Shown here: positions 12,866-48,785 of the stretch, one piece after another
How the letters are laid out: each line of letters begins with the position of its first letter
Position numbering within the stretch: the first letter of the stretch is position 1
Made by a program: the position numbers and the translations under genes
Assembly: GCA_013297655.1 (NCBI GenBank)
Contig: JAAFHV010000011.1
Location: 19,406-75,670 of the forward strand
Direction: 5' to 3'
DNA: 56,265 nt
From: Myxococcales bacterium
GTDB lineage: Bacteria; Myxococcota_A; Polyangia; Polyangiales; Polyangiaceae
Notes under the pieces: model-generated
The model's database searches: none
What the model saw: only the letters and a program-made list of their open reading frames with translations
What the model was told of the DNA's origin: nothing

Positions 12866-13095
12866 GCGAACCTCGGCTCGGCCGGGCGGGCCTCACGGCC
12901 CCCGAAGTCGCGGTCCTCCTTGGGCTCCCACTCGCGCACCTGAAGGGTGCCGTTGGTGGGGACGGCGTCGAGCTTCAGGTTGAGCGAGCCATCCTGGTTC
13001 TCGAACCCCACGCCGACGCGGACCCAATACGACTTCTGTCCGCGATCGACCACGGTGTAGACGACCTTCATTTTGCTGCTGCGCTGCTGATCCAT
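12862..13095 (-). CDS. small conserved-looking cytoplasmic protein, unknown
   Basis: 77 aa, start ATG 13093-13095 with a good ribosome binding site (GAGGAGAAACAGCC before ATG). The sequence (MDQQRSSKMKVVYTVVDRG, then SYWVRVGVGFENQDGSLNLK, TLQVREWEP) looks like a compact all-beta fold with a charged tail. No membrane segment, signal peptide or metal site. It resembles small 'single-strand-binding-like' or hypothetical beta proteins seen in proteobacteria, but I cannot name the family. Coupled (ATGA) to the ComEA-like gene, so both proteins are probably made together. Confidence 0.75.
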   Translation of the reverse strand: MDQQRSSKMKVVYTVVDRGQKSYWVRVGVGFENQDGSLNLKLDAVPTNGTLQVREWEPKEDRDFGGREARPAEPRFA

Positions 13096-13380
13096 GGCTG
13101 TTTCTCCTCGCCCCATTTCGTTGGGGCACGCCATCCCCTTAGCGAGCGCAATGCCAAGTCTTGTTCTATGAAATGATTGGGTAATTTTGAGTCGGAAGTG
13201 TCCGCGGACGGTTCGAGGGGCGTCCCGGGACGGTGGCGCGGATTTCCGTGGCACGTTCGATGGAAAGGGTGCTCTCGGTCGAGGCGGGTTTCGCGGTTCT
13301 TGCCCCATTTCCAAAAGCGCGTAAGAGAAAACAAAAGGCGCGGGCGTACGTGCCCGAGCCGTTTTCCTCCGAGGAGCGTG

Positions 13381-14526
13381 ATGCGCCTTACCGACGAAAC
13401 GACCGAGACCGCCCGCATCGAAGATTCGCTCACCCCCGAAGCTGGCGCGACGCGCCGAGCCTTCCTCGGTGCAGCCGGCGTGGCGCTCGTCGCCCCGTTC
13501 GCGCTCGAGGGCGTCGCCGAGGCAGCGGGAGCCGCCGAAGGCCCGAGCCTCGCCGCCGTTCCGCCGGACGGCTTCCGTCCCTTCCAAGCGCCGGGCCGGG
13601 TCATCAAGGTGTCCAAGAAGGACTGCCTCCAGGCCAACCAGCTCTACCCGAAGCCCGAAGACGCGAAGGCCATGCTCACGCGCGTGCTCACGGAGCTCAC
13701 CGGCAAGGCGGATCTGCTCTCGGCGGTGAAGGAGTTCGTGCACCCGAAGGACAAGGTCCTCGTGAAGGTGAACGGCATCGCGCGCGAGAACATGAGCACC
13801 AACAAGGAGCTCGTGATCCCGTTCGTCGAGGCCCTCGTCGCCGCCGGCGTGCCCGCCAACCAAATCACGCTCCTCGAGCAGTACGGCGGCTTCTTCTCGG
13901 GCACGCGCATCACCCCCGCCGCCCTCCCGGCCGGCGTGCAAGTCGCGATTCACCAGAACGGGAAAATCAAAGGCCCCGACGGGGACAAAGAGAACCCCGC
14001 GATGGTCGCGATGGCGGAGCGGCTCATCCCCGGCACCGGCACCCGCACCAAGTTCGTGCGCCCGCTCACCGAGTGCACCGCCGCCTTCAACTTCGCCCTC
14101 GTGAAGGACCACAGCATCTGCGGGTTCACCGGCGCGCTGAAGAACATGACCCACGGCTGCAGCGTCAACCCGCACGATTTCCACGTGCACAACGCGAGCC
14201 CCCAGATCGCGCTCATGTACGCGCAAGACGTCATCAAGTCGCGCGTGCGCCTCTCCATCCTCGACGGCTTCAAGGTCATGGCCAACGGCGGGCCGCTCTG
14301 GAAGATGCCGCAGCACGTGAAGCCGCACGAGGCCGTCTACGCCTCCACCGATCCGGTCGCCCTCGACACGATCGGCTGGGAAGTCGTCGAGAAGTACCGC
14401 GCCGAGCTCGGCCTCAAGACGCTCGCGGAAGACCGCCGCGCACCGCTCTACATCAAGGCCGCGGGCGAGCTCGGCCTCGGGATCGCCGACCGCGCGCGCA
14501 TCCAGCTCAAAGAAATCACGGTCTGA
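13381..14526 (+). CDS. Tat-exported DUF362 domain protein
   Basis: 381 aa, ATG 13381 with GAGGAGCGTG just upstream. The N-terminus carries a twin-arginine motif (TRRAFLGAAGVALVAPFAL, about residues 25-43), indicating folded export. The mature region matches the DUF362 pattern: VHPKDKVLVKVNGIAREN, the EALVAAGVPANQITLLEQYG strand, FNFALVKDHSICGFTGALKNM, THGCSVNPHDFHVHN and VYASTDPVALDTIGWEV. DUF362 proteins are often annotated as ferredoxin-like or iron-sulfur proteins, but no CxxCxxC cluster is present here; function unknown. Likely monocistronic, divergent from the ComEA pair. Confidence 0.85.
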   Translation: MRLTDETTETARIEDSLTPEAGATRRAFLGAAGVALVAPFALEGVAEAAGAAEGPSLAAVPPDGFRPFQAPGRVIKVSKKDCLQANQLYPKPEDAKAMLTRVLTELTGKADLLSAVKEFVHPKDKVLVKVNGIARENMSTNKELVIPFVEALVAAGVPANQITLLEQYGGFFSGTRITPAALPAGVQVAIHQNGKIKGPDGDKENPAMVAMAERLIPGTGTRTKFVRPLTECTAAFNFALVKDHSICGFTGALKNMTHGCSVNPHDFHVHNASPQIALMYAQDVIKSRVRLSILDGFKVMANGGPLWKMPQHVKPHEAVYASTDPVALDTIGWEVVEKYRAELGLKTLAEDRRAPLYIKAAGELGLGIADRARIQLKEITV

Positions 14527-14751
14527 TCTCGGGCCGTCGTGCTCTCGGGGGCCCTGCCAATCGGCACGGGTCCCTAGAGCACCGAGCCGTTCGATTCGGT
14601 CGGCTTTTCGCCGATTTGCTTCGCCGTCCCTCGTCAGGGACGTGCGGCCGCGGCCCTGTAGCGTCGTCGTCGCGCCTCGCACGGCTCGCAACTCAGCGAA
14701 AATCCTCGGTCATCGAACTGTTCGGTGCCCTCGGTCGTTTCGAGGATACGA

Positions 14752-15102
14752 ATGGCCCTTCGTCCTGCGCTCCGTCTCGTTCTTCAAGAGCTCCTCTCGC
14801 GCAGCGCGCAGTCGCGCGTGCTCACCCTCGACGACGTCGCGGGCGCGATCGGGACAGTGGCCGCCTCCGCGGACGACGTCGAGTCACTCTTCGCTGCGCT
14901 CGAGGGCGAGGGGCGAACGATCTCCGACGCGGACGTGAGCCACTCCCCGAAGGCCGACCTCGCCGTCGTCCTCGCCGCCGCGCGTGCCCTCGCCGCCGAG
15001 ATGGGCGCGCGACCCACCCCGTCGGCGATCGCAGGTCGCGCGGGCCTCTCGGTCGAACGCGTGCGCGCCGCGCTGCGGTTCGCGACGATCATGGCCCGCT
15101 GA
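14752..15102 (+). CDS. small sigma-70-like protein (region 1.1 and region 3 look-alike)
   Basis: 116 aa from ATG 14752, preceded by GAGG eight bases upstream. The first half (VLTLDDVAGAIGTVAASADD, ESLFAALEGEGRTISD) resembles region 1.1 of primary sigma factors, which has the same pattern 'LTYDEV...LP...S...I...L..L...GI.V'. The second half (ARALAAEMGARPTPSAIAGR, AGLSVERVRAALRFA) resembles sigma region 3 ('LGREPT..EIA..LGLS.E.V'). Regions 2 and 4, which bind promoter and core polymerase, are absent. It could regulate RNA polymerase or be a DNA-binding HTH protein of another family. Domain assignment is by eye. Confidence 0.65.
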   Translation: MALRPALRLVLQELLSRSAQSRVLTLDDVAGAIGTVAASADDVESLFAALEGEGRTISDADVSHSPKADLAVVLAAARALAAEMGARPTPSAIAGRAGLSVERVRAALRFATIMAR

Positions 15103-15212
15103 ATCACGTGCATAACGCAAGCGACGGCCCCTGCGAGCTGTAAATTACGGCGACTCGTGACCCCTTTCGCGGTGCGGCGCGACGATGGTGCAGGCGGCCG
15201 CGGCGATTTCGG

Positions 15213-16148
15213 GTGGAGCGAGAGGTGGGTACGAACTACTCTCCTCTCGTGCGGGAAAAGCTCTCCACGCTGAAGACACCCTTTACCCTCGGCAATCGCG
15301 GCTCGATGCCCGATTTGCCCGACGGGGCGGCGTTCCTCGTCATCCTTTACGGCCCGGACATGGGCCGGCGCATGCAGCTCGGCGAAGAGCCGTTCGTGAT
15401 CGGCCGCGTCGAGCCAGCGGACCTCTGCATCCCGCAGGAGAGCGTGAGCCGCAAGCACTCGCGCATCTTCCGTCGCGACGGTCGTCACCACATCGAAGAT
15501 CTCGGCTCCACGAACGGCACCTTCGTGAACGACGTGCTCGTGAAGGAGCACCCGCTCGAGAACGGCGTGCAGATCAAGATCGGCCGCAGCATCTTGAAGT
15601 ACATGATGGGGAACGACGTAGAGGCCCGATATCACGAGGAAATCTACCGCCTCATGATGACGGACGCGCTCACCCAGGCGCACAACAAACGCGCCTTCAG
15701 CGAGGCCCTCCCGCGGGAGGCGGCGCGCGCGCAGAGGTACCGTCGCCCGCTCTCGCTCGTCCTGTTCGACATCGATCACTTCAAGAAGATCAACGACACG
15801 TACGGCCACGTCGCGGGGGACTCCGTGCTCCGTCAGCTCGCCGGCCTCGTTCGCCCGCGCATCCGCGAGCACGACATCTTCGGTCGTGTCGGCGGCGAAG
15901 AGTTCGGCATCTTGCTCCCCGAGGTCGACGTCGAGGGGGCGAAGGTCGTCGCCGAGAAGGTGCGCGCGGCGGTCGAAGCGGCTCGTTTCCTCATCAAGGA
16001 GGAGTCGTTCTCCGCCACCGTCAGCCTCGGGTGCGCAGGCCTCGAAGGAACGAGCGGTGGCGTCGCGGACAAGCTCTACGAGCGCGCCGACAAGGCCCTC
16101 TACGCAGCGAAGCAGGGCGGTCGGAATCGCGTGGTCGTCGCCGAATGA
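15213..16148 (+). CDS. FHA domain diguanylate cyclase
   Basis: 311 aa from GTG 15213; a later GTG at 15252 is an alternative. Residues 44-125 are an FHA phosphothreonine-binding domain (FVIGRVEPADLCIPQESVSR, KHSRIF, IEDLGSTNGTFVND). Residues 150-311 are a GGDEF domain: DALTQAHNKRAF, LFDIDHFKKINDTYGHVAGD, an intact GGEEF at about 227-231, and RADKALYAAKQGGRN. An RxxD inhibitory site (REHD) lies five residues before GGEEF, so product inhibition by cyclic di-GMP is expected. It links Ser/Thr phosphorylation, via FHA, to c-di-GMP synthesis; the Ser/Thr kinase at 49189-50646 is one possible but unproven partner. Coupled (ATGA) to the following lipoprotein gene. Confidence 0.92.
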   Translation: MEREVGTNYSPLVREKLSTLKTPFTLGNRGSMPDLPDGAAFLVILYGPDMGRRMQLGEEPFVIGRVEPADLCIPQESVSRKHSRIFRRDGRHHIEDLGSTNGTFVNDVLVKEHPLENGVQIKIGRSILKYMMGNDVEARYHEEIYRLMMTDALTQAHNKRAFSEALPREAARAQRYRRPLSLVLFDIDHFKKINDTYGHVAGDSVLRQLAGLVRPRIREHDIFGRVGGEEFGILLPEVDVEGAKVVAEKVRAAVEAARFLIKEESFSATVSLGCAGLEGTSGGVADKLYERADKALYAAKQGGRNRVVVAE

Positions 16149-17077
16149 AGGAGCGCCGAGCGAAGGGCGCGCGGCTTCGAGGGCTCGTGGGCGCGGGCGC
16201 GGTAGCGCTCTTTCTCGTTTTCGCAGCTCCGGCGTGCCGCGGGAAAGCGACCCCCGATCCGCTCGACGCGACCCCGAGTGGATCGCTCGCTGCTCCGTCC
16301 ACCTCGCAGGCGCCCGTCGTCGAGCCGGACCCGCCGATCGAGGCAGACGCGGGCGCGTCGCGCGGAAAAATCTCCAACGGCACCCCCGCCGAGGGCCCCG
16401 AGGATCCGAAGAAGAGCTTCCTCGACAACCGGATCGCGAAGGGAAAGTCCGGGGTTGCCGAGATCGTGAGCCTGCGCGTGTGGCACTGCGGCCCATCGTG
16501 TACCTGCCCCGAGCCGTGCATCGAGACCGTCACCGAAGAGACGGGCCTCCGCTGGATCGACCTTCACGACGAGGGAGGCGCCGACGTGTCGCTCGCGGAC
16601 TGGGCCAACGCCGACGTCACGGGGCGGTTCACCGGGCGCACGCGGCTCGCGAAGTCTCCCAGTGGTGGCGAGCCGTATGTCGTCCCCGAGCTGCGCCTCA
16701 CGAGCTCACCCACGATCGTGAGCACGAGCATGGGGCCCGAGATCGAGGGCGCCCACGCGAAGGTGGTCCTCGCCGGCCCCGCCGCTCAGAAGCTCGTCAC
16801 GCGCGTCAAAGACGACAAGCCGTGGCTCGTGATCGCCGGCGCGTTCCCGCTCGCCGACGCGACCCGCGCCGACACCGACGCGAGCGCCCTCTTCGAGAAG
16901 CTCGACAAGCTCGGCATCAAGGACGCCGAGCGCTACGACAGCCGCGCGTTCGTCGGCCTCGCGTGTTGCTTCGACGTGGTGCTCGGTGGTCGTTTTGCAG
17001 ATCCGAAGGCCGCGGAGGCGAGGGCGCGCACGCTCTCCGCGCGCGGCGTGAAGGCGTACACGAAGAAGGGCTTCTGA
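16145..17077 (+). CDS. lipoprotein of unknown function, SPOR-like C-terminus
   Basis: 310 aa. ATG 16145 overlaps the cyclase stop codon. A basic N-terminus, hydrophobic core (GAVALFLVFAAPAC) and lipobox Cys at about residue 31 mark a lipoprotein. A Ser/Pro/Asp linker (to about 85) is followed by a Cys-rich patch (WHCGPSCTCPEPCIE) and a mixed alpha/beta domain. The last 35 residues (DVVLGGRFADPKAAEARART, SARGVKAYTKKGF) have the beta-alpha-beta look of a SPOR repeat. Coupling to a c-di-GMP synthase suggests an envelope output or sensor, which is inference. Confidence 0.75.
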   Translation: MKERRAKGARLRGLVGAGAVALFLVFAAPACRGKATPDPLDATPSGSLAAPSTSQAPVVEPDPPIEADAGASRGKISNGTPAEGPEDPKKSFLDNRIAKGKSGVAEIVSLRVWHCGPSCTCPEPCIETVTEETGLRWIDLHDEGGADVSLADWANADVTGRFTGRTRLAKSPSGGEPYVVPELRLTSSPTIVSTSMGPEIEGAHAKVVLAGPAAQKLVTRVKDDKPWLVIAGAFPLADATRADTDASALFEKLDKLGIKDAERYDSRAFVGLACCFDVVLGGRFADPKAAEARARTLSARGVKAYTKKGF

Positions 17078-34368: not shown

Positions 34369-35250
34369 ATGACCCCGCTCGCCCGTGCACGGCTTTCTCT
34401 CGAGGGTCTCTCCGTCGGCGACGCGTTCGGAGAGCAGCTCTTCGGAGAAAACGCGGTCGTGCTCCAGCGGCTCGAGCAACGCGACGTTCGCCCGCCGCCG
34501 TGGACGTACACGGACGACACCGAGATGGCGCTCTCGATCTTCGACATGCTCCGCGAGACCGGAGAGATCGATCGCGACGCGCTCGCGCAGGCCTTCGCGA
34601 AGCGCATGACGTACGCCCGCGGCTACGGCAAGGGGGCCTACGAGCTCCTCGAGGCCGTGCGCGGCGGCGCTCCTTGGAAGTCCGCGAGCGCGAATCTCTT
34701 CCGCGGCAAGGGCTCCTTCGGCAACGGCGCGGCGATGCGGATCGCCCCGCTCGGAGCTTATTTTTCCGACGATTTGACGCGGGTCGTCGCCGAGGCGCAC
34801 AAGGCCTCGGAGGTCACTCACGCGCACCCGGAGGGCATCGCCGGTGGCGTCGCGGTCGCGGTCGCGGCGGCCCTCGCCTGGAACGAGCGCGAATCGCCGA
34901 AGCTCGGGAGCGCCTTCGTCTCGCGGGTCGCCGACGAGGTGCCTGTAGGATACACGAAAGACGGTCTCCTCGCCGCAGAGCGCCTCTCCGCCGACGCACC
35001 GTACGCTCACGTGGTGGAGACGCTCGGCAACGGCGCGGCGGTGACGGCGGCCGACACGGTGCCGCTCTGCGTGTGGATCGTGGCGCACGCGACCTCGTTC
35101 GAGGAGGCCCTGTGGCAGACCGCGGGCGCGCTCGGCGATCGCGACACGACGTGCGCGATCGTGGGCGGAATCCTGGCGCTGCGCTTCGGTGACGCGGCGA
35201 TCCCCGCGCCGTGGCGAGCCGCGCGAGAGAAGCTCCCCCTCGACCCGTGA
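34369..35250 (+). CDS. ADP-ribosylglycohydrolase (DraG/ARH) family protein
   Basis: 293 aa, ATG 34369. Removes ADP-ribose from modified proteins or nucleic acids, using two Mg2+. Metal-binding residues are visible in WTYTDDTEMALS (TDDT at about 48-51) and GDRDTTCAIVGGILAL near the C-terminus (GDxDT). GxGxFGNGAAMRIAP and the SEVTHAHPEG loop are typical of the family. Expected cytoplasmic. The nearest convergent gene is an RNA ligase, which together could hint at RNA repair or ADP-ribosylated RNA ends, but this is only positional. Confidence 0.9.
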   Translation: MTPLARARLSLEGLSVGDAFGEQLFGENAVVLQRLEQRDVRPPPWTYTDDTEMALSIFDMLRETGEIDRDALAQAFAKRMTYARGYGKGAYELLEAVRGGAPWKSASANLFRGKGSFGNGAAMRIAPLGAYFSDDLTRVVAEAHKASEVTHAHPEGIAGGVAVAVAAALAWNERESPKLGSAFVSRVADEVPVGYTKDGLLAAERLSADAPYAHVVETLGNGAAVTAADTVPLCVWIVAHATSFEEALWQTAGALGDRDTTCAIVGGILALRFGDAAIPAPWRAAREKLPLDP

Positions 35251-35261
35251 CGGCGACGACC

Positions 35262-35361
35262 CTCGCGCCTCGAGAGCGACGCGAGGCTCGCGCCTCGAGA
35301 GCGACGCGAGGCTCGCGCCTCGAGAGCGACGCGAGGCTCGCGCGTCGAGAGCGACGCGAGC
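35262..35361. repeat. four tandem copies of a 25-bp GC-rich unit
   Basis: Units start at 35262, 35287, 35312 and 35337, each 25 bp (CTCGCGCCTCGAGAGCGACG followed by CGAGG). The fourth copy has one C-to-G change and diverges at its last base. Each unit is itself partly palindromic (CTCGCG...CGCGAG around CTCGAG). It fills the gap between two converging stop codons, 35250 and 35362, so may act as a terminator array or a recent slippage expansion. Confidence 0.85.
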
Positions 35362-36957
35362 TCAGCCCTTCACCGTGCAGAGCGGCCATAGGCGCGCGGT
35401 TCGGCTCGCGATACGTGCATCTTCCACCGAGCTGACGACCGGCTCGATGCCCTTGTACGCGCGCGGCGACTCTTCGAGCAGCCTCGCGCGGTGCTTCGCG
35501 AGGATGTCGCGTCGGTTGCGGAGGGCAGGGGAGCGCGGATCGATCGGGGTGACGACGTGGAGCGCGTCGATCTCGGCCTGCGCTTTGTCGCCCGCGTGGG
35601 CCGCCCTCCCACGGGAGAGCACGCGCCCCGCGCCGTGGCACGCGCTCTCGAGCGCCGCTTCGTTCCCGAGGCCGGACAGCACGTAGCTCGCAGCGCCCAT
35701 CGAGCCCGGGACGAGCACCGGTTTTCCGAGCCAACCCGAGCCTTTCGGACCCTCCGCCGGCGTCGCGCCCTTCCGATGGAGAAAGCGCTCTTCGCCAGGG
35801 AAAATCAGGTTGTGAGGCGCATCGTAGACCAGCTTCGCGTCGACACCGCGCCCTGTCACCTCACGGATCGCACGGAGCGCCATGAGACCGAGGAAGAGCC
35901 GGTTCGCGAAGGCGAAGTTGGCCGCGTTCGCCATCCCGTCGAGGTACGAGGCCCCTTCGTGCGCGAGGGGCCCGCTCGTGGGGAGCGGGAAGAAGCCTCC
36001 CTTCGGAGCGCGAACCGCGGTCGGGAAGATCTCCCGCGCGCGGTCCATGAAGTGGCCTCCCACTGCGTGCCCTACGCCGACGGAGCCGGAGTGCACCATG
36101 ATCGCGAGGTTGCCACGGGAGAGCCCGTAGGCCCGGGCGGCGTGGCCGTCGTAGAGGCGCTCGACCCGTTGGAGCTCCACGAAATGGTTCCCTCCACCCA
36201 CGCACCCGATCTGCGGATCGCGCCCGTCGATGCGTCCCGAAGAGCGCACGAACGAATCGAAGCCGAACAGACCTCGGGCGTGGAGGTGGCCTCCGAGGTG
36301 CGCGTCGTCGAGCGAAGCGCGTTGCTCTTCGGGGTCGTAGTGACGCCACACGCCGACCCCCGCGTTGTCCTCGCGGACGTCGTAGAGCCCGGGGAGACCG
36401 TCGCGGAGGATGGCCTCGCGCTGGCGGGGAGAGAGCGGAATGTCCCGCTTTCCCTCGAAGAAAATAGCGCGAAGCCTTCGCGTGAGCTCGGGCATGAAGG
36501 GGCCGATCGCGTCGGCGGGGAGGTCCGTCGCGAGCAGGCGCATGCCGCAGCAGACGTCGTTGCCGATCGCCTTCGGCACGACCATGTGGCGAGCGTCCAC
36601 CACGGTGCCGACGGGAATGCCGGAGCCCTTGTGGAAATCGGGAGTGAGCACGATGCGCGCGATGCCCGCGCCTTCGTCGCCGAAGAAGCGCGCCCCGCTC
36701 GTCCTCGTCATCGCGTGGAGATCCTGCGCCGCGCGCGCGAGATCGGCGAAGTCGAAGAGCTGACGGAACGCGTCCTCCGAGACGGGGACGTCGGGGCTCG
36801 CGAAGAAACGAATGTCGAGATCGAGGTCGGGGTGCTCGACGCGCGCGGAAGCGGACGAGTCTCGATGGAGAAACGGAAACGTAGGAATCAAGAGAGCCTC
36901 TGCGAACGCGTCGCTCGCAGGCTCGAGAGAGCTGCGTCGCGAACGCGCACGAATCAC
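35362..36957 (-). CDS. rtcB: RtcB-type RNA 3'-phosphate ligase
   Basis: 531 aa from GTG 36955-36957; start uncertain, since the frame is open to 37176 but that part overlaps a divergent gene. RtcB joins RNA 3'-phosphate or 2',3'-cyclic phosphate to 5'-OH using GTP and Mn2+. Motifs: LTPDFHKGSGIPVGTVVDAR, AIGNDVCCGMRL (Mn-binding Cys), CVGGGNHFVELQ, MVHSGSVGVGH, VYDAPHN, PGSMGAASYVLSG and ACHGAGRVLSR with the guanylylated His. It lacks an rtcA or archease neighbour. The HSGSVGVGH motif differs from the common HxGSRxxGH by an Arg-to-Val change. About 70 residues precede the usual start of the fold. Confidence 0.9.
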   Translation of the reverse strand: MIRARSRRSSLEPASDAFAEALLIPTFPFLHRDSSASARVEHPDLDLDIRFFASPDVPVSEDAFRQLFDFADLARAAQDLHAMTRTSGARFFGDEGAGIARIVLTPDFHKGSGIPVGTVVDARHMVVPKAIGNDVCCGMRLLATDLPADAIGPFMPELTRRLRAIFFEGKRDIPLSPRQREAILRDGLPGLYDVREDNAGVGVWRHYDPEEQRASLDDAHLGGHLHARGLFGFDSFVRSSGRIDGRDPQIGCVGGGNHFVELQRVERLYDGHAARAYGLSRGNLAIMVHSGSVGVGHAVGGHFMDRAREIFPTAVRAPKGGFFPLPTSGPLAHEGASYLDGMANAANFAFANRLFLGLMALRAIREVTGRGVDAKLVYDAPHNLIFPGEERFLHRKGATPAEGPKGSGWLGKPVLVPGSMGAASYVLSGLGNEAALESACHGAGRVLSRGRAAHAGDKAQAEIDALHVVTPIDPRSPALRNRRDILAKHRARLLEESPRAYKGIEPVVSSVEDARIASRTARLWPLCTVKG

Positions 36958-37589: not shown

Positions 37590-38396
37590 ATGATTCGTGT
37601 CACGGTCGCAAGTCCGAAGGGTGGCGTGGGCAAGACCACGATCGCTCTCAATCTGGCCTACGCTCTCGCCCAGCGCGGTCGTCGTGTGCTGCTCGTGGAC
37701 GCCGATCCGCAAGGAGGCATCGGTCATTCACTGACCGGCCGCGCGAAAGAGGCAGAAGGCCTCGTCGAGGTCGTGAACGGGACCGCCTCCGCCGACGTGC
37801 TCATCGACACGAAGGTGAAAGGTTTCTCGATCCTCCCGATCGGGCGCGTGCCCTGGGCGTCGCTCGAAGAGTGGCAGGGGCGGCTCGCGGCGGGCACGGA
37901 CCTCGCGCACTGCCTCGCGCCGTTCGCGTCGCGCTTCGACGTCTGTCTCGTAGACACTCCCGCCGGACTGAGCGGGCTCACCCGCGTCGCCCTCGAGTGG
38001 GCGGAGCACGTCGTGCTGCCGATCCAGACCGAGCCGCTCGCCCTGCGATCCGTATCGTCGCTGCTCGAGGTGCTCGGTTCGCTCCGCGCACGTGGGCTCC
38101 CCGTGAAGCTCTCCGCCGTCGTGCTGTCGATGGCTCAGTTCCGCGACGACCTCTCGCTCGGAGTGTCGCAAGAGGTGTGGTCTCTCTTCCCGGAGGCGCT
38201 CGTGCTCGACGCGTTCGTGCCGAAGGATCCCACCTTCGTGGAGGCGAGCGCGAAGGGCGTGCCGGTCGCGCTCTTGAAGCGAAGGCCACCGCCCGTCACG
38301 GCCGTGTTCGACCGAATTGCAAGCGACCTGGATGCACGTCTCGGCCTGGAGGAAGCGACCGATGGTGACGACGAACCGCTCTCTCTCTTGGATTGA
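37590..38396 (+). CDS. ParA/MinD-family ATPase
   Basis: 268 aa from ATG 37590, with GGAGG eight bases upstream. Deviant Walker A at residues 8-17 (SPKGGVGKTT, with signature Lys10 and Lys15), VLLVDADPQGGIGHSL (Walker A' Asp), and DVCLVDTPAGLSGLTR (Walker B). Such ATPases dimerise on ATP and bind nucleoid or membrane to place partners. No ParB gene or parS-like palindrome is present, so this is likely an orphan positioning or switch ATPase rather than a chromosome partition protein. First gene of a seven-gene coupled operon with Roadblock, V4R, kinase and regulator genes. Confidence 0.9.
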   Translation: MIRVTVASPKGGVGKTTIALNLAYALAQRGRRVLLVDADPQGGIGHSLTGRAKEAEGLVEVVNGTASADVLIDTKVKGFSILPIGRVPWASLEEWQGRLAAGTDLAHCLAPFASRFDVCLVDTPAGLSGLTRVALEWAEHVVLPIQTEPLALRSVSSLLEVLGSLRARGLPVKLSAVVLSMAQFRDDLSLGVSQEVWSLFPEALVLDAFVPKDPTFVEASAKGVPVALLKRRPPPVTAVFDRIASDLDARLGLEEATDGDDEPLSLLD

Positions 38397-38961
38397 TCGC
38401 TCGCGCTGGGGCAGCCTCCTCGGCGCTGCGGTCGGTGATCCTCAGTTCGCTTCGGCGCCCGCTCCCGCTCCTACGGTCGCGATCGAAGCGAAGCCACAAA
38501 GGCGCACGCTCAGCCCGCCGAGCATGGGGTTCGCGGCGGCGGTGCCCTCGTTCTTGCCGCCCGAGAGCCAGCTCGATACGCGCCTCGCCGCGTTCCTCGC
38601 GTGGGTCGTCGAGCGCACCCAATGCTCCGCGGTCTTCGTCGCCGACGAGAGCGGCCTACCCGTCGCGGAGCACGCCGGCAGCGATCTCGCGCGTGTCGCC
38701 GCAGTGTCGGCCGTGCTCGGCATGCTCCAGCAGTTCCGTCACGCCGTCGGTGAGTCCACCGGCGCGTGGGTGAGCGTGCACCTCGACGACCAGGTCATGC
38801 ACTTCGTCGAGGTGCAGAGCGACTGGGGCCGTTTCGGCGCGGGCCTGCTCACCCCCGACTCTTTACCTTCGCGCGATCTCGTCGAGGTCCGCGACGCGCT
38901 TTTTCGGGCGTTCGTTCCGGGAGGAACCCCGGTCGCCGCTCCAGCCTGGAGGAATCGATGA
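38362..38961 (+). CDS. Roadblock/LC7-like protein A
   Basis: 199 aa from ATG 38362 behind GGAGG, overlapping the ParA gene by 35 bp. Residues 1-65 form a linker (MVTTNRSLSWIDRSRWGSLL then Ala/Pro-rich). The rest has the Roadblock pattern: LDTRLAAFLAWVVERTQCSA, VFVADESGLPVAEHAG, LARVAAVSAVLGMLQQFRHA, WVSVHLDDQVMHFVEVQSDW and FGAGLLTPDSLP. Roadblock proteins such as MglB act as small-GTPase activating partners or adaptor dimers. The operon contains no GTPase, so ParA may be the nucleotide-binding partner (inference). Stop overlaps the first 22-codon micro-ORF (ATGA). Confidence 0.75.
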   Translation: MVTTNRSLSWIDRSRWGSLLGAAVGDPQFASAPAPAPTVAIEAKPQRRTLSPPSMGFAAAVPSFLPPESQLDTRLAAFLAWVVERTQCSAVFVADESGLPVAEHAGSDLARVAAVSAVLGMLQQFRHAVGESTGAWVSVHLDDQVMHFVEVQSDWGRFGAGLLTPDSLPSRDLVEVRDALFRAFVPGGTPVAAPAWRNR

Positions 38962-39087
38962 ACATGCAAAGGAGCCGGAGGCGACTGGCTTGCCTGTGGG
39001 GACCGAGCGAAGCGAGGGAGCCATGAACATGCAAAGGAGCCGGAGGCGACTGGCTTGCCTGTGGGGACCGAGCGAAGCGAGGGAGCC
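38958..39087 (+). repeat. tandem 65-bp duplication encoding two coupled 22-codon micro-ORFs
   Basis: Two identical 65-bp units (38958-39022 and 39023-39087). Each starts with ATG, encodes MNMQRSRRRLACLWGPSEAR plus Glu-Pro, and stops at a TGA overlapping the ATG of the next unit or gene. ATGA junctions are at 38958, 39023 and 39088. Each unit also supplies GAGGGAG before the following ATG. Because 65 is not divisible by three, each copy restores the same coupling without fusing frames. Either real tiny peptides or a translational spacer. Confidence 0.9.
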
Positions 39088-39663
39088 ATGAATCCGTCCG
39101 TCGACGAAGCTGTGCGCGACGCCCCGCAGCTCGTGGGGCTCTTCGTGGCCACGATGCCCGACTGCCTACTCTACCACTCGTGGAGTCGCTCCGCGACGGA
39201 GTGGGCCGCGGACGAGGTCGCGGGGTACTTCGGCGACCTCATTCGCGCGAACCGCGAAGGTCTCCGCGCCCTCTCGGCCTGGTCCGCCGACATGCAGGTC
39301 ACGATCGAGTCGCGCGACGCGCTCGTGGTCTTGAAGGAGCTTACCCCCTCGTTCGCGATGGGCTGCGTCTTCGATCGCAACGCGCCGCTCGGCCTCGTGC
39401 GACTCCACATGAAGCGGCTCGTCGATCGTGTCACCGCTGCCCTGCCGGACGTTGCCCCCGCGGAGCGCTCGCGCGGCGAGAAGATCGTCGAGTTCCTCGA
39501 GCGGTACGCGCCGGACCCGCACGCCGTGTTGCTCCGCGTGTCGCTCCGTACCGGGCTCGCGCTCGATCGCCTCCGCGACGCGAGCTCCTTGTCCGCGCCC
39601 GAGGTCGAATCGGTCGAGCGCGTCGCGTGTCAATTGCTCGGCCTCGCCAAGCTCGCCGTATGA
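39088..39663 (+). CDS. Roadblock/LC7-like protein B
   Basis: 191 aa from ATG 39088, coupled to the second micro-ORF. Core pattern: VGLFVATMPDCLLYHSWSRS, YFGDLIRANREGLRALSAWS, MQVTIESRDALVVLKELTPS, FAMGCVFDRNAPLGLVRLHM and a long C-terminal helical part (residues 115-191). Roadblock-like with an extra helical tail; not alignable end to end with protein A, so they may form a heterodimer. Ten bases separate it from the V4R gene. Confidence 0.7.
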   Translation: MNPSVDEAVRDAPQLVGLFVATMPDCLLYHSWSRSATEWAADEVAGYFGDLIRANREGLRALSAWSADMQVTIESRDALVVLKELTPSFAMGCVFDRNAPLGLVRLHMKRLVDRVTAALPDVAPAERSRGEKIVEFLERYAPDPHAVLLRVSLRTGLALDRLRDASSLSAPEVESVERVACQLLGLAKLAV

Positions 39664-39673
39664 GGGACCATTC

Positions 39674-40939
39674 ATGAGCGTCGAGAGCCTACGCACGTTC
39701 GACAAGGCGCAAAGCCTCACGTTTTTGGCAGGAATTCCGTATGTTTATCACTGCCATCACTACAATCTGTTCCACGACCAAACGGTCGACGACGCGCTCG
39801 GCGACGAGGCGGGGCTCGAGGTGCGGACCCGCTCCGCGCGCAACGCGTTCCGGTCCGTCCTCGAGGCCGCCTCGAAGGAGCTCCACGCGACCACGCCGGT
39901 AGAGAAGGTGCAGCTTGCACGCGAGCTCTTCCCTTGGATGGGGCTCGGGAACCTCGACATCTCGACCTCCGCGTTCGGGGGCGAAGCGCGCGGGGCGACC
40001 CTCCACTACGGCTTCTCTTGGCGCGAGAAATACGGCGCGCAGGTGAAGCGCACGCTCCCCGCCGACGCGGTGGCGTCCGGTTTCGCCGCCGCCGTGACCG
40101 AGGTCGCGTACGGCCTACCCTCGGGATCGGCGTGGACGGTCGAAGAAGAGTGCGTCGCGGCGAAGGCTGCACAGTGCAGGTTTCGTATCGAACGCCGTCC
40201 GCTCGGGGGCTGGGAAGAGCCGCTCCCGACCGTGATCGACACCGCCGCCGCCATCGCCGCTGCGGGCCCTCCCGAGCGCGGTGTCGACGAAGATCGCATC
40301 GCCAAGATCGGGTCCGGCTTGACCGACTTCATGAAGGGCGTGCGCGGCGACGAGCGTGGCCTCGTGCAGGCCTTCTCGGTGTTCGTCGCGGCCCAGCTCT
40401 CGAGCTACTACAACGAGTCGATCTTCGAGATGATCACGCGTCTCGAGAAGCGAAGCCCGGAGCTCGCCCCCGTCGCGGAGGACCTCGCCCGCGAAGCGGG
40501 GCGGGTGTGCGTGTTCAACACGTTCGGCAACGTGCTCTTGTCGCCGGAGTGGGAGGCCCTCGTCGGCCCGCTCGGCAACGATCCGGCCGACATCGTCAGC
40601 TTCTGCCTCGCCATCGCGCGCGGCTTGGGCTTCGGTCACTGGTACCTCCACGAGTACGAGCCGCGAAAGCGCTTCGTGATGCGGGCCTCGAGCAGCTACG
40701 AGGTTCCGTTTTACGTCTCTCGCTACGGCAAGGCCGATCGTCCGCGTGGCTACTTTTTAGGTGGATCGGCGCACGCGATCGCCGCCCTCGCGGAGGGGGT
40801 GCGCTGGGGCGAGCGGCCCAAGCTCGACGGTGAGCTTTACATGAAGCTCCTCGGTGGCAGGAATCGCGCGCACGTGGAGCAGACCAAGTGCCAAATGCGC
40901 GGTGACGAAATCTCGGAGCTGGTGGTCACCCTGCCATGA
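39674..40939 (+). CDS. protein with two V4R-like domains
   Basis: 421 aa, ATG 39674. The first half has a V4R (4-vinyl-reductase) pattern: FGGEARGATLHYGFSWREKY, SGFAAAVTEVAYGLPSGSAW, VEEECVAAKAAQCRFRIERR (Cys of the V4R zinc/ligand site). The second half repeats it: ADIVSFCLAIARGLGFGHWY, YFLGGSAHAIAALAEGVRWG, RNRAHVEQTKCQMRGDEISE (second Cys). V4R domains in bacteria and archaea are small-ligand sensors, often for hydrophobic or aromatic compounds. The middle (about 205-290) is helical. Likely the sensory input of this operon; its stop overlaps the next ATG (ATGA). Confidence 0.75.
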   Translation: MSVESLRTFDKAQSLTFLAGIPYVYHCHHYNLFHDQTVDDALGDEAGLEVRTRSARNAFRSVLEAASKELHATTPVEKVQLARELFPWMGLGNLDISTSAFGGEARGATLHYGFSWREKYGAQVKRTLPADAVASGFAAAVTEVAYGLPSGSAWTVEEECVAAKAAQCRFRIERRPLGGWEEPLPTVIDTAAAIAAAGPPERGVDEDRIAKIGSGLTDFMKGVRGDERGLVQAFSVFVAAQLSSYYNESIFEMITRLEKRSPELAPVAEDLAREAGRVCVFNTFGNVLLSPEWEALVGPLGNDPADIVSFCLAIARGLGFGHWYLHEYEPRKRFVMRASSSYEVPFYVSRYGKADRPRGYFLGGSAHAIAALAEGVRWGERPKLDGELYMKLLGGRNRAHVEQTKCQMRGDEISELVVTLP

Positions 40940-41253
40940 TGCGGCCGCTCCAGCGCGATCACTCTTGCATGAAGCACCTGGCGTTCAGGATGGACCTCTT
41001 GAGCCCTTCCTTCGCCGACGTTCTTCGTGAGATCGCGCTCGGGCTCGGCTTCGTCGAGGAGGCGCCGATCGTGGGCCTCTCCAAGCTCGTGTCGCCCGAA
41101 GGGCACGAGATCCTGCTCGTGCCGCGCACTGGTCGCGCGCAACTGCGTGTATTTTACATGACTCCACAGGAGGAGCGGCGCCACGTCGCGGAGGACGTGT
41201 ATTGCCGCATCGCGCGAGTCTTCGTCGCGCGTGGAGCCGCGAATGGTGGATGA
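40936..41253 (+). CDS. small protein of the Roadblock/V4R operon, unknown
   Basis: 105 aa, ATG 40936 overlapping the V4R stop. Sequence (LLSPSFADVLREIALGLGFV, ILLVPRTGRAQLRVFYMTPQ, EERRHVAEDVYCRIARVFVA) is soluble alpha/beta without signal peptide. Family not recognised; the pattern of a helix, two beta strands and a terminal helix suggests a small regulatory or adaptor fold. Confidence 0.7.
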   Translation: MMRPLQRDHSCMKHLAFRMDLLSPSFADVLREIALGLGFVEEAPIVGLSKLVSPEGHEILLVPRTGRAQLRVFYMTPQEERRHVAEDVYCRIARVFVARGAANGG

Positions 41254-42331
41254 CGGCGGCACGATCGCCCCGGCGGCCCTCGCCCACGTGCTCGAGCAGA
41301 TCGATCTCGGCGTGGTGGGGGTGCGGCTCACCGAAGAGCCGCGGGTGCTCTTCTCGAACGAGAAGGCGCGCGAGCTGCTCGGTGCCACGATCGAGGTCGC
41401 GCTCGTGGTGCGCCTGTTCGGCGGAAAGCTCCGCACGTCGCGCCACAGCTCCGCGTCGTTCATCGTCGGCGATTGGATCCGCGTCGGCGAAAAGAACGTG
41501 GGCTTCTCGGTGTACGAAGTACCCGACGGCTCGCAATGGATCATCCTCCGCGACGTCACCGAGAAGCTGCGGATGCAGCGCGCGGCGGAGGGAATGACGG
41601 TCGCGAACAACCTCGGATACACGTTCGCGGGAGTAGCGCACGAGCTCGGCAACCCGGTGAACTCGGTGAAGATGGCGGCGACCGTGCTCCGCGACAACGC
41701 GCAGACCTTCAGCCCCGAGAAGCAGCACGAGTACCTGACCGAGATCCTCTCCGAGACGAACCGGATGCAAGACATCTTGCGCCTCATGCAGGGGTTCATC
41801 GGAATGGCCTCGCTCGAGCCGGTGACGTGCGATCTCGCGGCGGAGTGCCGCGCGGTGGTGGAGCGGGTCGGTCGCGACGCGACCCAGAAGGGCGTCGTGG
41901 TCGTCTCCGCGTTCGCGGCGCGCGGTCAGGTCCCGTCGCGCGTCGACCCGCCCGCGTTCAGGCAAGTGCTCATCAACCTCTTCGCGAACGCCGTAGAGGC
42001 CGTCGCGGGGGTATTTGGTCCTCAGGTATCGATCGACGCCTTTTTGGGAGAACGAGCGGCTCACGTCCGCGTATCGGACAATGGCAAAGGCATCGACAGC
42101 GCCCAAAAAGAGCGCCTCTTCTTTCCTTTTTATTCCACCCGCCCCGGCGGAATGGGGTTCGGTCTCGTCATCGTGAAGAAGCTCGTCTCCAGCATGGGCG
42201 GCACGATCGAGGTCACGAGCGCTCCCGGGATCGGCACCTCGTTCGAGCTCCTGTTGCCGCTCGCGGACGAGGTCGCGGTGCGGAGCGACACCGGCGATTT
42301 GGCCGCCGCGTCGAGCCGGAGGGGCGCATGA
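41243..42331 (+). CDS. sensor histidine kinase (soluble)
   Basis: 362 aa from ATG 41243 (GTG 41231 possible); 11-bp overlap with the small gene before it. Residues 8-110 look like a PAS-type input domain (LEQIDLGVVGVRLTEEPRVL, then WIILRDVTEKLRMQ). DHp helix with phospho-accepting His133 in AGVAHELGNPVNSVKMA. HATPase domain: N-box LINLFANAVEAVAG, G1 VSDNGKGIDSAQ, F-box LFFPFYSTRPGG, G2 GGMGFGLVIVKKLV. No membrane segment, so it senses an intracellular cue. The response regulator follows directly (ATGA), giving a cognate pair. Confidence 0.93.
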   Translation: MVDDGGTIAPAALAHVLEQIDLGVVGVRLTEEPRVLFSNEKARELLGATIEVALVVRLFGGKLRTSRHSSASFIVGDWIRVGEKNVGFSVYEVPDGSQWIILRDVTEKLRMQRAAEGMTVANNLGYTFAGVAHELGNPVNSVKMAATVLRDNAQTFSPEKQHEYLTEILSETNRMQDILRLMQGFIGMASLEPVTCDLAAECRAVVERVGRDATQKGVVVVSAFAARGQVPSRVDPPAFRQVLINLFANAVEAVAGVFGPQVSIDAFLGERAAHVRVSDNGKGIDSAQKERLFFPFYSTRPGGMGFGLVIVKKLVSSMGGTIEVTSAPGIGTSFELLLPLADEVAVRSDTGDLAAASSRRGA

Positions 42332-43782
42332 GCGCCGAGCCGAAGACGGTGCTCGTGGTCGACGACGAGCCGCTATTCGTGCGGAGCCTCGCGGACGGAC
42401 TCCGGCCCCTCGGCGAGCGCGACGGGTTCGTCGTTCTCACCGCGACGAACGGGCGTGACGCCGTCGCCGCGCTCCAGTCGGAGCAAGTCGACCTCGTGCT
42501 CACCGATTTGCGCATGCCGGGGATGGACGGGTTCCAGCTCATCTCTTGGATGATCGCGCAAAAGCGGAACGTGCCGGTGGTGGTCATGACGGCGATGCCG
42601 TCGCTCGAGGCGCGCGTGCAACTGCGGCAAACCGGGGCCTTCACCGTGCTGCAGAAGCCGGTCGATTTGGCCGAGGTCCACAAGTGCATCGTGAGCGAGC
42701 TCGCGGTGCGACGAGTGCGGGTCGAGGGGCTCGCGACGAGCGCATTTTTGCAGCTCGTTTCGATGGAACGTGTCTCGTGCGTGCTCACGATCCGCTCCGG
42801 GACGCGTGTAGGACACATGGGAATCGTGGGCGGCGATCTGGTCCACGCCGAGCTCGAGGATCGCGACGGTCTCGCCGCGGCGCACGCGCTCGTCGGCCTC
42901 CCCGACGCGGTCATCGAGATGGTCGAGCGCGAAGACGTCCCCAAGTCGGGTATCGTCGTCCCCCTCGCCGAGGTGGTGCTCGATGCGCTCCGCAGCCACG
43001 ACGAGCAGGCGCGCGGCGAAGGGAGGATCACCGCGCCGCCCTCCGCGCCGGGCGAGATCGAGCTCGAGTTCGATCTGTTGAAGTCGAAGCGGCCTCCCCC
43101 GCTCGAGGTGGAGACAACGCCGCCGCCCGCGCTCGTGGCGGTGCTCGCGAGCGCCAAGGCTCCCGTGGTCGACACCCCCACGAGCGGGCCGCGGTCGACG
43201 CCGCAGGCGGGAACGCCGAAGTCGGCGTGGCCCTCCTCGGTGCCCGCTCCGGCTGCGCCCGTCCCTACGCCGCGCGAACCTGCGCCGCGTGAAACGAACG
43301 ACGAGCGTGGTCTCCCGACGAGCGCGCCGCCGCCGATTCCGCCGCTGCCTCTTCCGCCCGCGCTACAGGCACCGCCACTCCCAACGAACGAGGATCCCCT
43401 TATGAACGTGATTAGCGTCGAAAAGGCCAATATCGCCGTCACCAAGCTCCGGGAGTCTCTCGGCGCTGGCCTCGTCGCGACCGACGTTTGGAACGTGGAT
43501 GACGGAATGCCGATCGCGGGTTTCAACTCGCAGCCCGTCGCGACCGCGCTCTTCAACCGCATCACCGACGTCATCAGCGAGACGCTCGCCGAGTCCGGCT
43601 TTCCGGCGCTCAACAAGTATTACCTCCTCGACCTCGAGGGCGACAAAATCGTGGTCGTCATTCCGCTCGGGAAATACCGGGCAGGGATGCTCGTCGACAA
43701 GAAGAAGGCGCAGCTCGGCGTCGTCGTCAGCGTCGCGCTCCCTAAGTACGTGAACGGGCTCGAAGAGGCCATTCGGGGCTGA
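42328..43782 (+). CDS. response regulator: REC + DUF4388 + Roadblock-like domain
   Basis: 484 aa. Receiver domain (1-125) with acidic pocket VLVVDDEPLF, phospho-acceptor Asp60 in LVLTDLRMPGMDGF, Thr in VVMTAMPS and Lys in VLQKPVDLAE. Then DUF4388 (about 132-205: LATSAFLQLVSMERVSCVLT, MGIVGGDLVHAELEDRDGLA), the PatA-type domain common in myxobacterial regulators. A Pro-rich linker (about 235-355) leads to a C-terminal Roadblock/LC7-like domain (NVISVEKANIAVTKLRESLG, VWNVDDGMPIAGFN, YYLLDLEGDKIVVVIPLGKY). It links phosphorelay output to a Roadblock module, so it may dock with the two Roadblock proteins or ParA. Last gene of the operon. Confidence 0.9.
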   Translation: MSAEPKTVLVVDDEPLFVRSLADGLRPLGERDGFVVLTATNGRDAVAALQSEQVDLVLTDLRMPGMDGFQLISWMIAQKRNVPVVVMTAMPSLEARVQLRQTGAFTVLQKPVDLAEVHKCIVSELAVRRVRVEGLATSAFLQLVSMERVSCVLTIRSGTRVGHMGIVGGDLVHAELEDRDGLAAAHALVGLPDAVIEMVEREDVPKSGIVVPLAEVVLDALRSHDEQARGEGRITAPPSAPGEIELEFDLLKSKRPPPLEVETTPPPALVAVLASAKAPVVDTPTSGPRSTPQAGTPKSAWPSSVPAPAAPVPTPREPAPRETNDERGLPTSAPPPIPPLPLPPALQAPPLPTNEDPLMNVISVEKANIAVTKLRESLGAGLVATDVWNVDDGMPIAGFNSQPVATALFNRITDVISETLAESGFPALNKYYLLDLEGDKIVVVIPLGKYRAGMLVDKKKAQLGVVVSVALPKYVNGLEEAIRG

Positions 43783-48485: not shown

Positions 48486-48785
48486 TCAGTCGGTCTCGGC
48501 GTCGGCGCTCGCGTCGCCGCCATCGCCCGCGTCGACCGGCGGGGGAGGCATGAGGTTGCCCGAAGTGACGGGGGCGTCGGCTCGCGCGTCGGCCACCGGC
48601 GGAGGCATGAGGTTGCCCGAAGTGACGAGGGCGTCGGGCTGGGCGTCTTCTTCGGCCGAGGCGTCCACCTCGGGCGCCATCAGGTTGCCCGACGTCTGCG
48701 TGGTGGTGCACGCCACGTAGCTAATCGCCGCGACCCCGACCGATGCCACGAGCAACTTCCGACCGATGACGCGCTTCTTAGCCAT
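48486..48785 (-). CDS. GNLM-repeat lipoprotein 2
   Basis: 99 aa from ATG 48783-48785. Signal peptide RKLLVASVGVAAISYVAC with lipobox Cys26, nearly the same as its downstream paralogue. Three copies of the motif: TSGNLMAPEVDA, TSGNLMPPPVADA and TSGNLMPPPPVDA, separated by acidic Asp/Ala stretches. The two proteins share motif but not charge: this one is acidic, the other Pro/His/Lys-rich. Both should be exported and lipidated. First gene of the GNLM/ferritin-like operon. Confidence 0.75.
   Translation of the reverse strand: MAKKRVIGRKLLVASVGVAAISYVACTTTQTSGNLMAPEVDASAEEDAQPDALVTSGNLMPPPVADARADAPVTSGNLMPPPPVDAGDGGDASADAETD

Follow-up and report, generated by a model that had tools for sequence, protein, structure and literature searches.

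How could a signal steer a ParA ATPase in a bacterium? ParA ATPases organise bacterial cells via partners, and Roadblock and V4R domains are building parts of the eukaryotic TRAPP and Ragulator complexes. Genes for all of these stand together in a Myxococcales bacterium, in an operon that lies in a stretch of 56,265 nucleotides (contig JAAFHV010000011.1, positions 19,406 to 75,670), the whole of which we call the window. Seven plus-strand genes at window positions 37590-43782 code for a ParA ATPase, two Roadblock proteins (Rb1 and Rb2), a protein with two V4R domains (V4R2), a small protein (p105), a soluble histidine kinase (HK) and a response regulator (RR). An earlier note on this DNA had proposed them as an undescribed signalling or positioning system. 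The seven genes and their four overlapping junctions are borne out by our gene calls, and no description of the set was found in the open-licence literature that we searched. The operon is a small defined system for asking how signals steer ParA and what bacterial V4R proteins bind, and it bears on whether Roadblock-V4R scaffolds worked with nucleoside triphosphatases (NTPases) outside the Asgard line. We lean towards reading it as a ParA system under sensor control, with Roadblock proteins in the role of the ParB-type partners.

Conservation and separability of the genes

Do these genes form a unit? Iterated six-frame searches with hidden Markov models (HMMs) found ParA-Rb1-Rb2-V4R2-p105 as the gene order, all on a single strand, and loci titled Acidobacteriota (L088, L098, L099 and L145) show it too. 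The core is these five genes, in records of Myxococcota and Acidobacteriota. V4R2 was matched in 35 of the 377 genomes of the window's phylum. A scan of named contigs with a nine-row V4R2 alignment gave 61 loci, nearly all metagenome-assembled, and their titles included Myxococcota, Acidobacteriota/Thermoanaerobaculia, cyanobacteria, Bacteroidia, WOR-3 and others. Some loci are the same contigs (for example, L086 is L046 and L101 is L047), so the locus sets are not independent and the co-occurrence of ParA and the Roadblock genes was counted only over L086-L146. Where at least 2.6 kb were available upstream of V4R2 (49 loci), Rb2 was found in 42, Rb1 in 33 and ParA in 31, and the loci with ParA had both Rb1 and Rb2 in 31/31 cases. 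On the other side, a strict HMM detected p105 in 39 of the 53 V4R2 loci with at least 700 bases downstream. Rb2-V4R2 without a ParA match was seen in the cyanobacterial loci L128, L131, L132, L134 and L140 and in WOR-3 loci; in L129 (Deinococcus group) the upstream DNA, 2.1 kb, is too short to judge ParA. V4R2 and p105 accompany a kinase-REC protein in L124 (Lujinxingia) and in L052-L055, which resemble it, with no ParA or Roadblock match in the stretch. The alignments behind these and later counts omit truncated or long sequences and those of uncertain start (Rb1 10/38 loci, Rb2 8/53, V4R2 9/61, p105 3/39).

Loci L086-L146 were all found via V4R2 and cannot show Rb2 or ParA without it; hence Rb2, Rb1 and p105 were searched for genome-wide in the 377 genomes. 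Candidates were scored as the best 8 per genome for Rb2 and Rb1, the best 13 for p105 and the best 4 for V4R2, and the E thresholds that define strong matches were chosen after viewing the match lists. All 14 Rb2 loci with E <1e-13 adjoin V4R2. The next one (G221:C177, 2.1e-13) comes from a genome without V4R2 match, and many of the weaker Rb2 matches are MglB-like. The 12 p105 matches with E <1e-18 also adjoin V4R2 without exception, and three weaker ones (1.1e-9, 1.2e-9 and 2e-4) are not beside it. Strong p105 is present in 8 of the 14 Rb2 loci, and four p105 loci are without Rb2. For Rb1 there were 14 matches with E <1e-14, 11 of them adjoining V4R2. In G094:C105 and G250:C735, Rb1 lies at a contig end and the V4R2 contig of the same genome ends at Rb2, so each is probably one operon split between contigs. 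The fourteenth match is G131:C53 (see below). These neighbourhoods indicate that Rb2 and p105 depend on V4R2, which can occur without them, and that ParA and Rb1 form a pair found at V4R2 loci and at others. The check set beforehand was whether the genes occur apart as often as together, and for Rb2 and p105 they do not, their strong matches being all beside V4R2. A conserved module thus stands, with order and co-occurrence holding for five genes across two phyla; the idea of all seven as the unit does not extend to HK and RR, which are accessory in the V4R2 branch.

The seven genes might also be a chance co-transcribed run with separate functions. The fact that close relatives of HK and RR adjoin the core only in L087 would suit this explanation, whereas the order and co-occurrence of the core across records of two phyla, and the recurrence of HK with REC-DUF4388 in a sister operon (see below), are hard to fit with it. 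We consider it very improbable for the set: for the five-gene core chance is excluded by conservation, and for single accessory genes it is possible.

Some other genes were seen around these loci. The cyanobacterial L131 has two Rb2 genes upstream of V4R2 (8172-9869), and in the Bacteroidia record L137 a gene for a PAS-SpoIIE protein lies near V4R2 (389-1552). In L109 the ParA module is followed by [NiFe] hydrogenase subunits and a maturation protease (13093-16579, by eye). A small protein with a VQTE/LQTE stretch is encoded beside the module in L105 (6703-7149), L107 (11541-11954, without Pfam match), L109 (11591-12067) and L048 (3949-4461).

The ParA-Rb1 pair and its exchanged sensors

The identities that had been proposed for ParA, the histidine kinase, REC-DUF4388 and V4R are all confirmed by profiles, and over the whole operon a family or fold is established for six of the seven proteins. 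ParA scores with AAA_31 (6.1e-28) and CbiA (2.9e-19) in Pfam, and its best solved chain is 1wcv, a 'segregation protein' (6.1e-25); FleN is also among the solved relatives. The deviant Walker A motif KGGxG[K/R]T is present in 31 of the 32 module ParAs, including that of the window, and the remaining one is a fragment. In a tree of 56 rows (11 of 67, those of at least 420 residues, were omitted) we compared them with 13 other ParA-like rows from seven related genomes, of which 8 group in a branch with 100/100 support and 4 in another.

Which protein could be the partner of this ATPase? Rb1 is nearly scoreless in Pfam (across 29 members, Robl_LC7 appears in 2 and LAMTOR5 in 4). When profiles are compared with each other, it matches the MglB-type Roadblock (hhalign 93.4%, E 2.5e-7), and Rb2 does so too, in agreement with what the earlier note had called them. 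Loci entered the following statistics if their start codon had been assigned and, in the case of Rb1, if a ParA was present. In 26 of 28 loci Rb1 starts within parA and shares its last 26-32 nt, and in the other two it starts 26 nt after parA; in the window the overlap is 35 nt. The 29-row alignment begins with a peptide with the majority sequence M..SLSWID, and K/R occurs within the first 20 residues in 27/29. After it comes a linker of 36-227 residues (median 70), in which P/A/S/G/T/Q/E make up 66%, vs 48% in ParA. In the parts of two papers available to us, published partners of ParA/MinD ATPases act via an N-terminal peptide that is short and whose positive residues are essential (PMC13170346, PMC10241942). 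As far as can be judged from sequence, the architecture of Rb1 fits that of ParA partners, with a charge weaker than in the classic cases.

The weaker matches of Rb1 led to operons with a different sensor. In L171 the order is PAS-HK, Roadblock (Robl_LC7, 1.7e-16), ODP (PF19583, 9.2e-68), REC-DUF4388 (24.9 bits, just under the cut-off of 25), ParA and Rb1. The ODP family consists of oxygen-binding di-iron proteins. Over the aligned parts, L171 and the window are 42% identical in ParA, 28% in the kinase and 27% in the regulator. By similarity, L172, L174 and L175 have the same gene order, and the Rb1 of L175 was found by profile (2.0e-7) and missed by the local HMM. There are variants. L173 has no ODP match and carries a Protoglobin gene after Rb1 (3.1e-31); in L178, RR-ParA-Rb1 has a kinase-like match upstream, and ODP and Roadblock lie at a distance of about 4 kb; in L179, HK, Roadblock, RR and Rb1 are found without a ParA match. 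The ParA-Rb1 pair is thus constant and the sensor set is exchanged, V4R2-p105-Rb2 in one case and ODP-Roadblock in the other. Because HK and REC-DUF4388 recur with ParA-Rb1 in the sister operon, we regard HK and RR as belonging to the same kind of system. The open-licence literature that we searched contained no description of the ODP operon either.

These data can be read in another way. ParA could be a nucleotide-dependent output switch whose nucleotide state is set by the Roadblocks, as MglB does for MglA, and whose ATP form acts on a target. FleN, which acts on FleQ, would be the analogy, and its presence among the solved relatives of ParA agrees with this. No conserved cargo gene was noticed beside the module (by eye, among the genes listed), and one source (PMC4316618, in part) calls Roadblock proteins predicted regulators of NTPases. 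On the other hand, the peptide plus linker of Rb1 is typical of ParA partners and unlike a bare MglB-like domain, and the best solved matches of ParA are segregation and ParA-family proteins. We give this alternative roughly one chance in four.

Several findings weigh against the sensor-controlled ParA system that we favour. Compared by profile, Rb1 gives no match to Rb2 (hhalign 2.0%). The C-terminal domain of RR (RRc), which had been thought Roadblock-like, is not confirmed as such (hhalign 0.5%, 5.8% and 1.3%, with only 4-5 rows). Over its first 20 residues Rb1 has a net charge of only -5 to +4, and two of the 29 lack K/R there, so the peptide is not of the classic basic type. In L127 the Rb1 motif is retained although the 8.6 kb upstream contain no ParA match, a finding that speaks against ParA binding as its only role. 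Besides, part of the motif's DNA also encodes the C-terminus of ParA, which may account for some of the conservation; L120 and L121, where the genes do not overlap, retain a version of the motif, and this argues for selection in Rb1 itself. The module ParAs are not one supported clade. The ParA of G022, 51% identical to that of the window and with no other core gene noticed alongside, falls among them. G131:C53 has a ParA-Rb1 pair in a genome without V4R2 match, with no sensor gene noticed alongside, and V4R2 is found also without ParA, Rb1 or Rb2.

Putative sensor proteins, phosphorelay and possible mechanism

What would the sensor be made of? Rb2, nearly scoreless in Pfam, matches the MglB-type Roadblock profile (hhalign 95.6%, E 1.2e-8; the p105 control gave 0.3%), and its structure points the same way. 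The AlphaFold2 (AF2) model has a predicted local distance difference test (pLDDT) score of 92.7. Its best Foldseek match is the Asgard Roadblock3 9jue (2.7e-7), with the Myxococcus MglB 6izw at 2.0e-6, and VIA gave Z scores of 17.0 for 9jue and 16.5 for MglB in 6h5b, covering residues 1-121. In V4R2, the V4R match of the window protein alone is sub-threshold (19.7 vs 31 bits). Over the family, 41 of the 53 aligned members match the V4R profile (best 6.3e-14), and profile positions 60-172, in the first half, match the solved V4R protein MJ1460 (E 8.3e-4). No Pfam family is matched by more than one of the 37 rows of p105. Its AF2 model (pLDDT 95.1) has no Foldseek match at 0.001 (best E 0.042), and VIA, where a family not listed is not thereby excluded, gave BamC as best match (Z 8.3), many unrelated rows scoring 6-8; given these weak scores we claim no fold family for it. 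The small gene that follows a split V4R pair in L072-L075, L077 and L080-L082 matches p105 (hhalign 94.8%); that of L067-L071 and L078 does not (0.7%), and the third gene of the cyanobacterial loci matches weakly (21.8%, E 1e-3).

The residues H26, H29, N31, H111 and C160 are invariant in the 53/53 rows of the V4R2 alignment. A second paralog group (L058-L060; L130 is L058 and was left out), outside that alignment, has H26, C27 and N31 replaced. The His/Cys set, the ODP and protoglobin sensors, and the class-V aminotransferases near other V4R2 genes make a metal, heme or redox ligand our first guess; the paralogs without H26 and C27 are evidence against a metal site common to all. The same data allow a third reading, in which V4R2-Rb2-p105 would be a cofactor-assembly or carrier complex (for a metal, Fe-S or tetrapyrrole) and ParA would be a deviant-Walker ATPase that loads it like the ApbC/NifH-type proteins. 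The invariance of H26, H29, H111 and C160 would agree with it, and ParA is also above the cut-off in PF10609 (NUBPL, 43.4 vs 27.1 bits) and Fer4_NifH (26 vs 25), in both of which the match covers the P-loop only. Moreover, a class-V aminotransferase (cysteine-desulfurase family) adjoins relatives of the V4R2 gene in L061 and L077 (Pfam) and in L065, L082 and L052-L055 (by eye), and V4R genes occur in the pre-PcyA and slr0144-slr0149 clusters, according to part of PMC10151467. Against it are the replacements in the second paralog group, the lack of a CxxC in the window ParA, whose best matches are AAA_31/CbiA and Soj-type proteins, and the absence of a ferredoxin match for p105. The aminotransferases that we noticed sit in loci without ParA-Rb1, the ParA loci not having been systematically searched for them. 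We find this reading rather unlikely.

In the two-component pair, RR matches Response_reg and DUF4388 (PF14332, 30.4 bits vs a cut-off of 25). The N-terminal third of HK is without Pfam match, and the PAS-like domain that had been seen there found no support in Pfam. Among the loci from the six-frame HMM searches, close relatives of HK (2e-120) and of RR lie beside the V4R2 core only in L087, divergent from it. RRc, the last 119 residues of RR, is present in 4 of 59 genomes, that of the window included. In G416 it belongs to the L087 locus. In G032 (L166 690-3103, 4932-6069) an HK and REC-DUF4388-RRc pair lies 1.8 kb from mglA and mglB (by eye), with no V4R2 match in the genome. In G417 (L167) RRc stands alone as a gene of 124 aa, immediately downstream of ParA-Rb1; a DUF4388 gene (27.8 bits) and, by eye, a TPR-like gene precede it, and no Rb2, V4R2 or p105 match was found within the 16 kb fetched. 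From this position RRc seems to belong with ParA-Rb1. DUF4388 itself has 3-32 copies per genome in 34/34 genomes, among the matches listed. In the neighbours picked by hand it is above the cut-off in the window RR, L046, L047, L087, L097, L105:8025, L109:12067 and L167, below it in L129 (20.2), and absent in L107:8149, L109:7028, L105:6082 and L107:11541.

How might these parts work together? In the sensor-controlled ParA system, V4R2 (with p105) would sense a ligand, perhaps a metal, a gas or a hydrophobic molecule in the V4R pocket, and Rb2 would bear the V4R2-p105 assembly. Rb1 would be the ParA partner; its N-terminal peptide may contact the ATP-bound ParA dimer and drive the ATP cycle, the Pro/Ala-rich linker may act as a tether, and its Roadblock domain could pair with other Roadblocks, Rb2 here and the canonical Robl_LC7 protein in the sister operon. 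HK would phosphorylate REC, and DUF4388/RRc would dock on the Roadblock or ParA side and in this way switch the assembly. The ParA cycle would then position, cluster or release the sensor-Roadblock complex depending on the signal. Within this scheme we infer the physical contacts, the stimulation of the ATPase by Rb1, the ligand, the nucleoid as track and the cargo.

Similar arrangements are known in several systems. The ParA/MinD positioning systems (McdAB, PomXYZ, chemotaxis-array ParA, ParABS) have in common with our operon a deviant Walker A ATPase and a neighbouring partner with N-terminal peptide, linker and folded domain. Here, however, the fold of the partner is a Roadblock, there are an extra Roadblock, V4R genes and a phosphorelay, and there is no ParB and no known cargo. 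A ParB domain is absent from the seven window proteins in Pfam (parS was not searched for), and they have no match above the cut-off to small-GTPase families, as the earlier note had said. MglA/MglB and the Streptomyces conservon (HK, Roadblock, an unknown protein and a GTPase) share with our operon HK and Roadblocks coupled to a P-loop NTPase. In the window a ParA-class ATPase replaces the small Ras-like GTPase, and V4R2 and p105 have no counterpart there. The available part of PMC4316618 describes the conservon, and PATAN (DUF4388) genes near some mglA genes and MglB homologues. Regulators of the PATAN kind such as PatA have REC and DUF4388 in a single protein, which in our case is tied to ParA-Rb1 and fused to RRc. 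PixE is another PATAN response regulator. The ODP family, sensor of the sister operon with ParA-Rb1, is absent from the window operon and V4R2 is in its place.

The pre-PcyA V4R clusters and slr0144-slr0149 of Synechocystis also encode two V4R domains with small partner genes. They differ in having globin, Fe-S protein and sometimes heme oxygenase or FDBR, none of which was found by Pfam in the seven window proteins; V4R pairs with Fe-S protein, globin and FDBR are reported in the portion seen of PMC10151467. TRAPP, Ragulator and their Asgard relatives combine Roadblock/longin and V4R (Bet3) folds in a scaffold coupled to a P-loop NTPase. The relation of V4R to Bet3 is treated in the accessible part of PMC2253512, and that of PMC10933270 gives H-NOX together with PoxR among the structural relatives of the TRAPPC3/V4R fold. 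Our system is bacterial and has ParA, with neither Rab/Rag GTPase nor longin gene (Pfam finds no Rab-type GTPase or longin subunit in the seven window proteins). Tentatively, the operon might encode a bacterial Roadblock-V4R scaffold of the TRAPP/Ragulator kind with ParA as its NTPase, that is, a ligand-gated platform made of the two Roadblock proteins and the double V4R protein, which ParA would move or assemble, with interchangeable sensors (V4R2 or ODP) and a phosphorelay, a possibility that we rate below the sensor-controlled ParA system. If true, signalling machines that join an NTPase to Roadblock proteins would gain a new class.

Layout of the operon and the repeat inside it

The features of the operon are collected in Table 1. 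Alternative GTG starts are possible for ParA (37575) and HK (41231). Apart from ParA/Rb1, the overlapping junctions are V4R2/p105 (4 nt), p105/HK (11 nt) and HK/RR (4 nt).

Table 1. Positions in the window of the operon genes and of the repeat, with the evidence for each
Feature	Positions	Strand	Evidence
ParA/Soj-type ATPase, core gene 1	37590..38396	+	Pfam AAA_31/CbiA
Rb1, core gene 2: conserved N-terminal peptide, Pro/Ala-rich linker, C-terminal Roadblock domain	38362..38961	+	hhalign, 29-row alignment
65-bp repeat in tandem, outside the conserved system	38958..39092	+	TRF, 2.1 copies, 100% matches
Rb2, core gene 3: Roadblock (about residues 1-123), helical C-terminal part (about 125-191)	39088..39663	+	hhalign, AF2, Foldseek, VIA
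V4R2, core gene 4: two V4R domains, HCHHYN motif close to N-terminus	39674..40939	+	Pfam across members, MJ1460 match
p105, core gene 5: small alpha/beta protein, nearly invariant C11, conserved TGR.QIR stretch	40936..41253	+	37-row alignment, AF2
HK, soluble histidine kinase: HisKA and HATPase_c	41243..42331	+	Pfam
RR, response regulator: REC, DUF4388 (PATAN), Pro-rich linker, C-terminal domain RRc	42328..43782	+	Pfam

Is the junction between Rb1 and Rb2 part of the design? It is filled by the 65-bp unit, the second copy of which ends at the Rb2 start codon, and the earlier note had read this micro-ORF (open reading frame) unit as a bridge that helps to make fixed stoichiometry likely. We found 15 matches of the unit in its own genome, including a second tandem pair on contig C182 (L003/L004), and none in the 29 relatives (0/29). 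In 7 of 13 repeat places the unit ends 0-5 nt before a start codon followed by at least 200 open codons, a count made with no chance-ORF control. The unit has the appearance of a dispersed repeat with a ribosome-binding site in it. Elsewhere the gap between Rb1 and Rb2 is short: of 32 loci, one has +64 nt and the other 31 lie between -11 and +35 nt, so that the repeat is probably a late insertion here. Being dispersed in the genome, absent from relatives and lacking in other loci with short gaps, the repeat gives no information on stoichiometry, and we reject it as a device for this.

We also rejected a role of the operon in anti-phage defence: in PADLOC, ParA matched three models and the REC part matched one, in each case only partially. 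Upstream of the operon, Pfam identifies an ADP-ribosylglycohydrolase (34369-35250, plus strand) and an RtcB ligase (35362-36891, minus strand). Two more tandem repeats are present in the window, a 25-bp unit in 4 copies between two genes (35262-35360) and a 57-bp unit in 1.9 copies within a small minus-strand ORF call (48528-48637).

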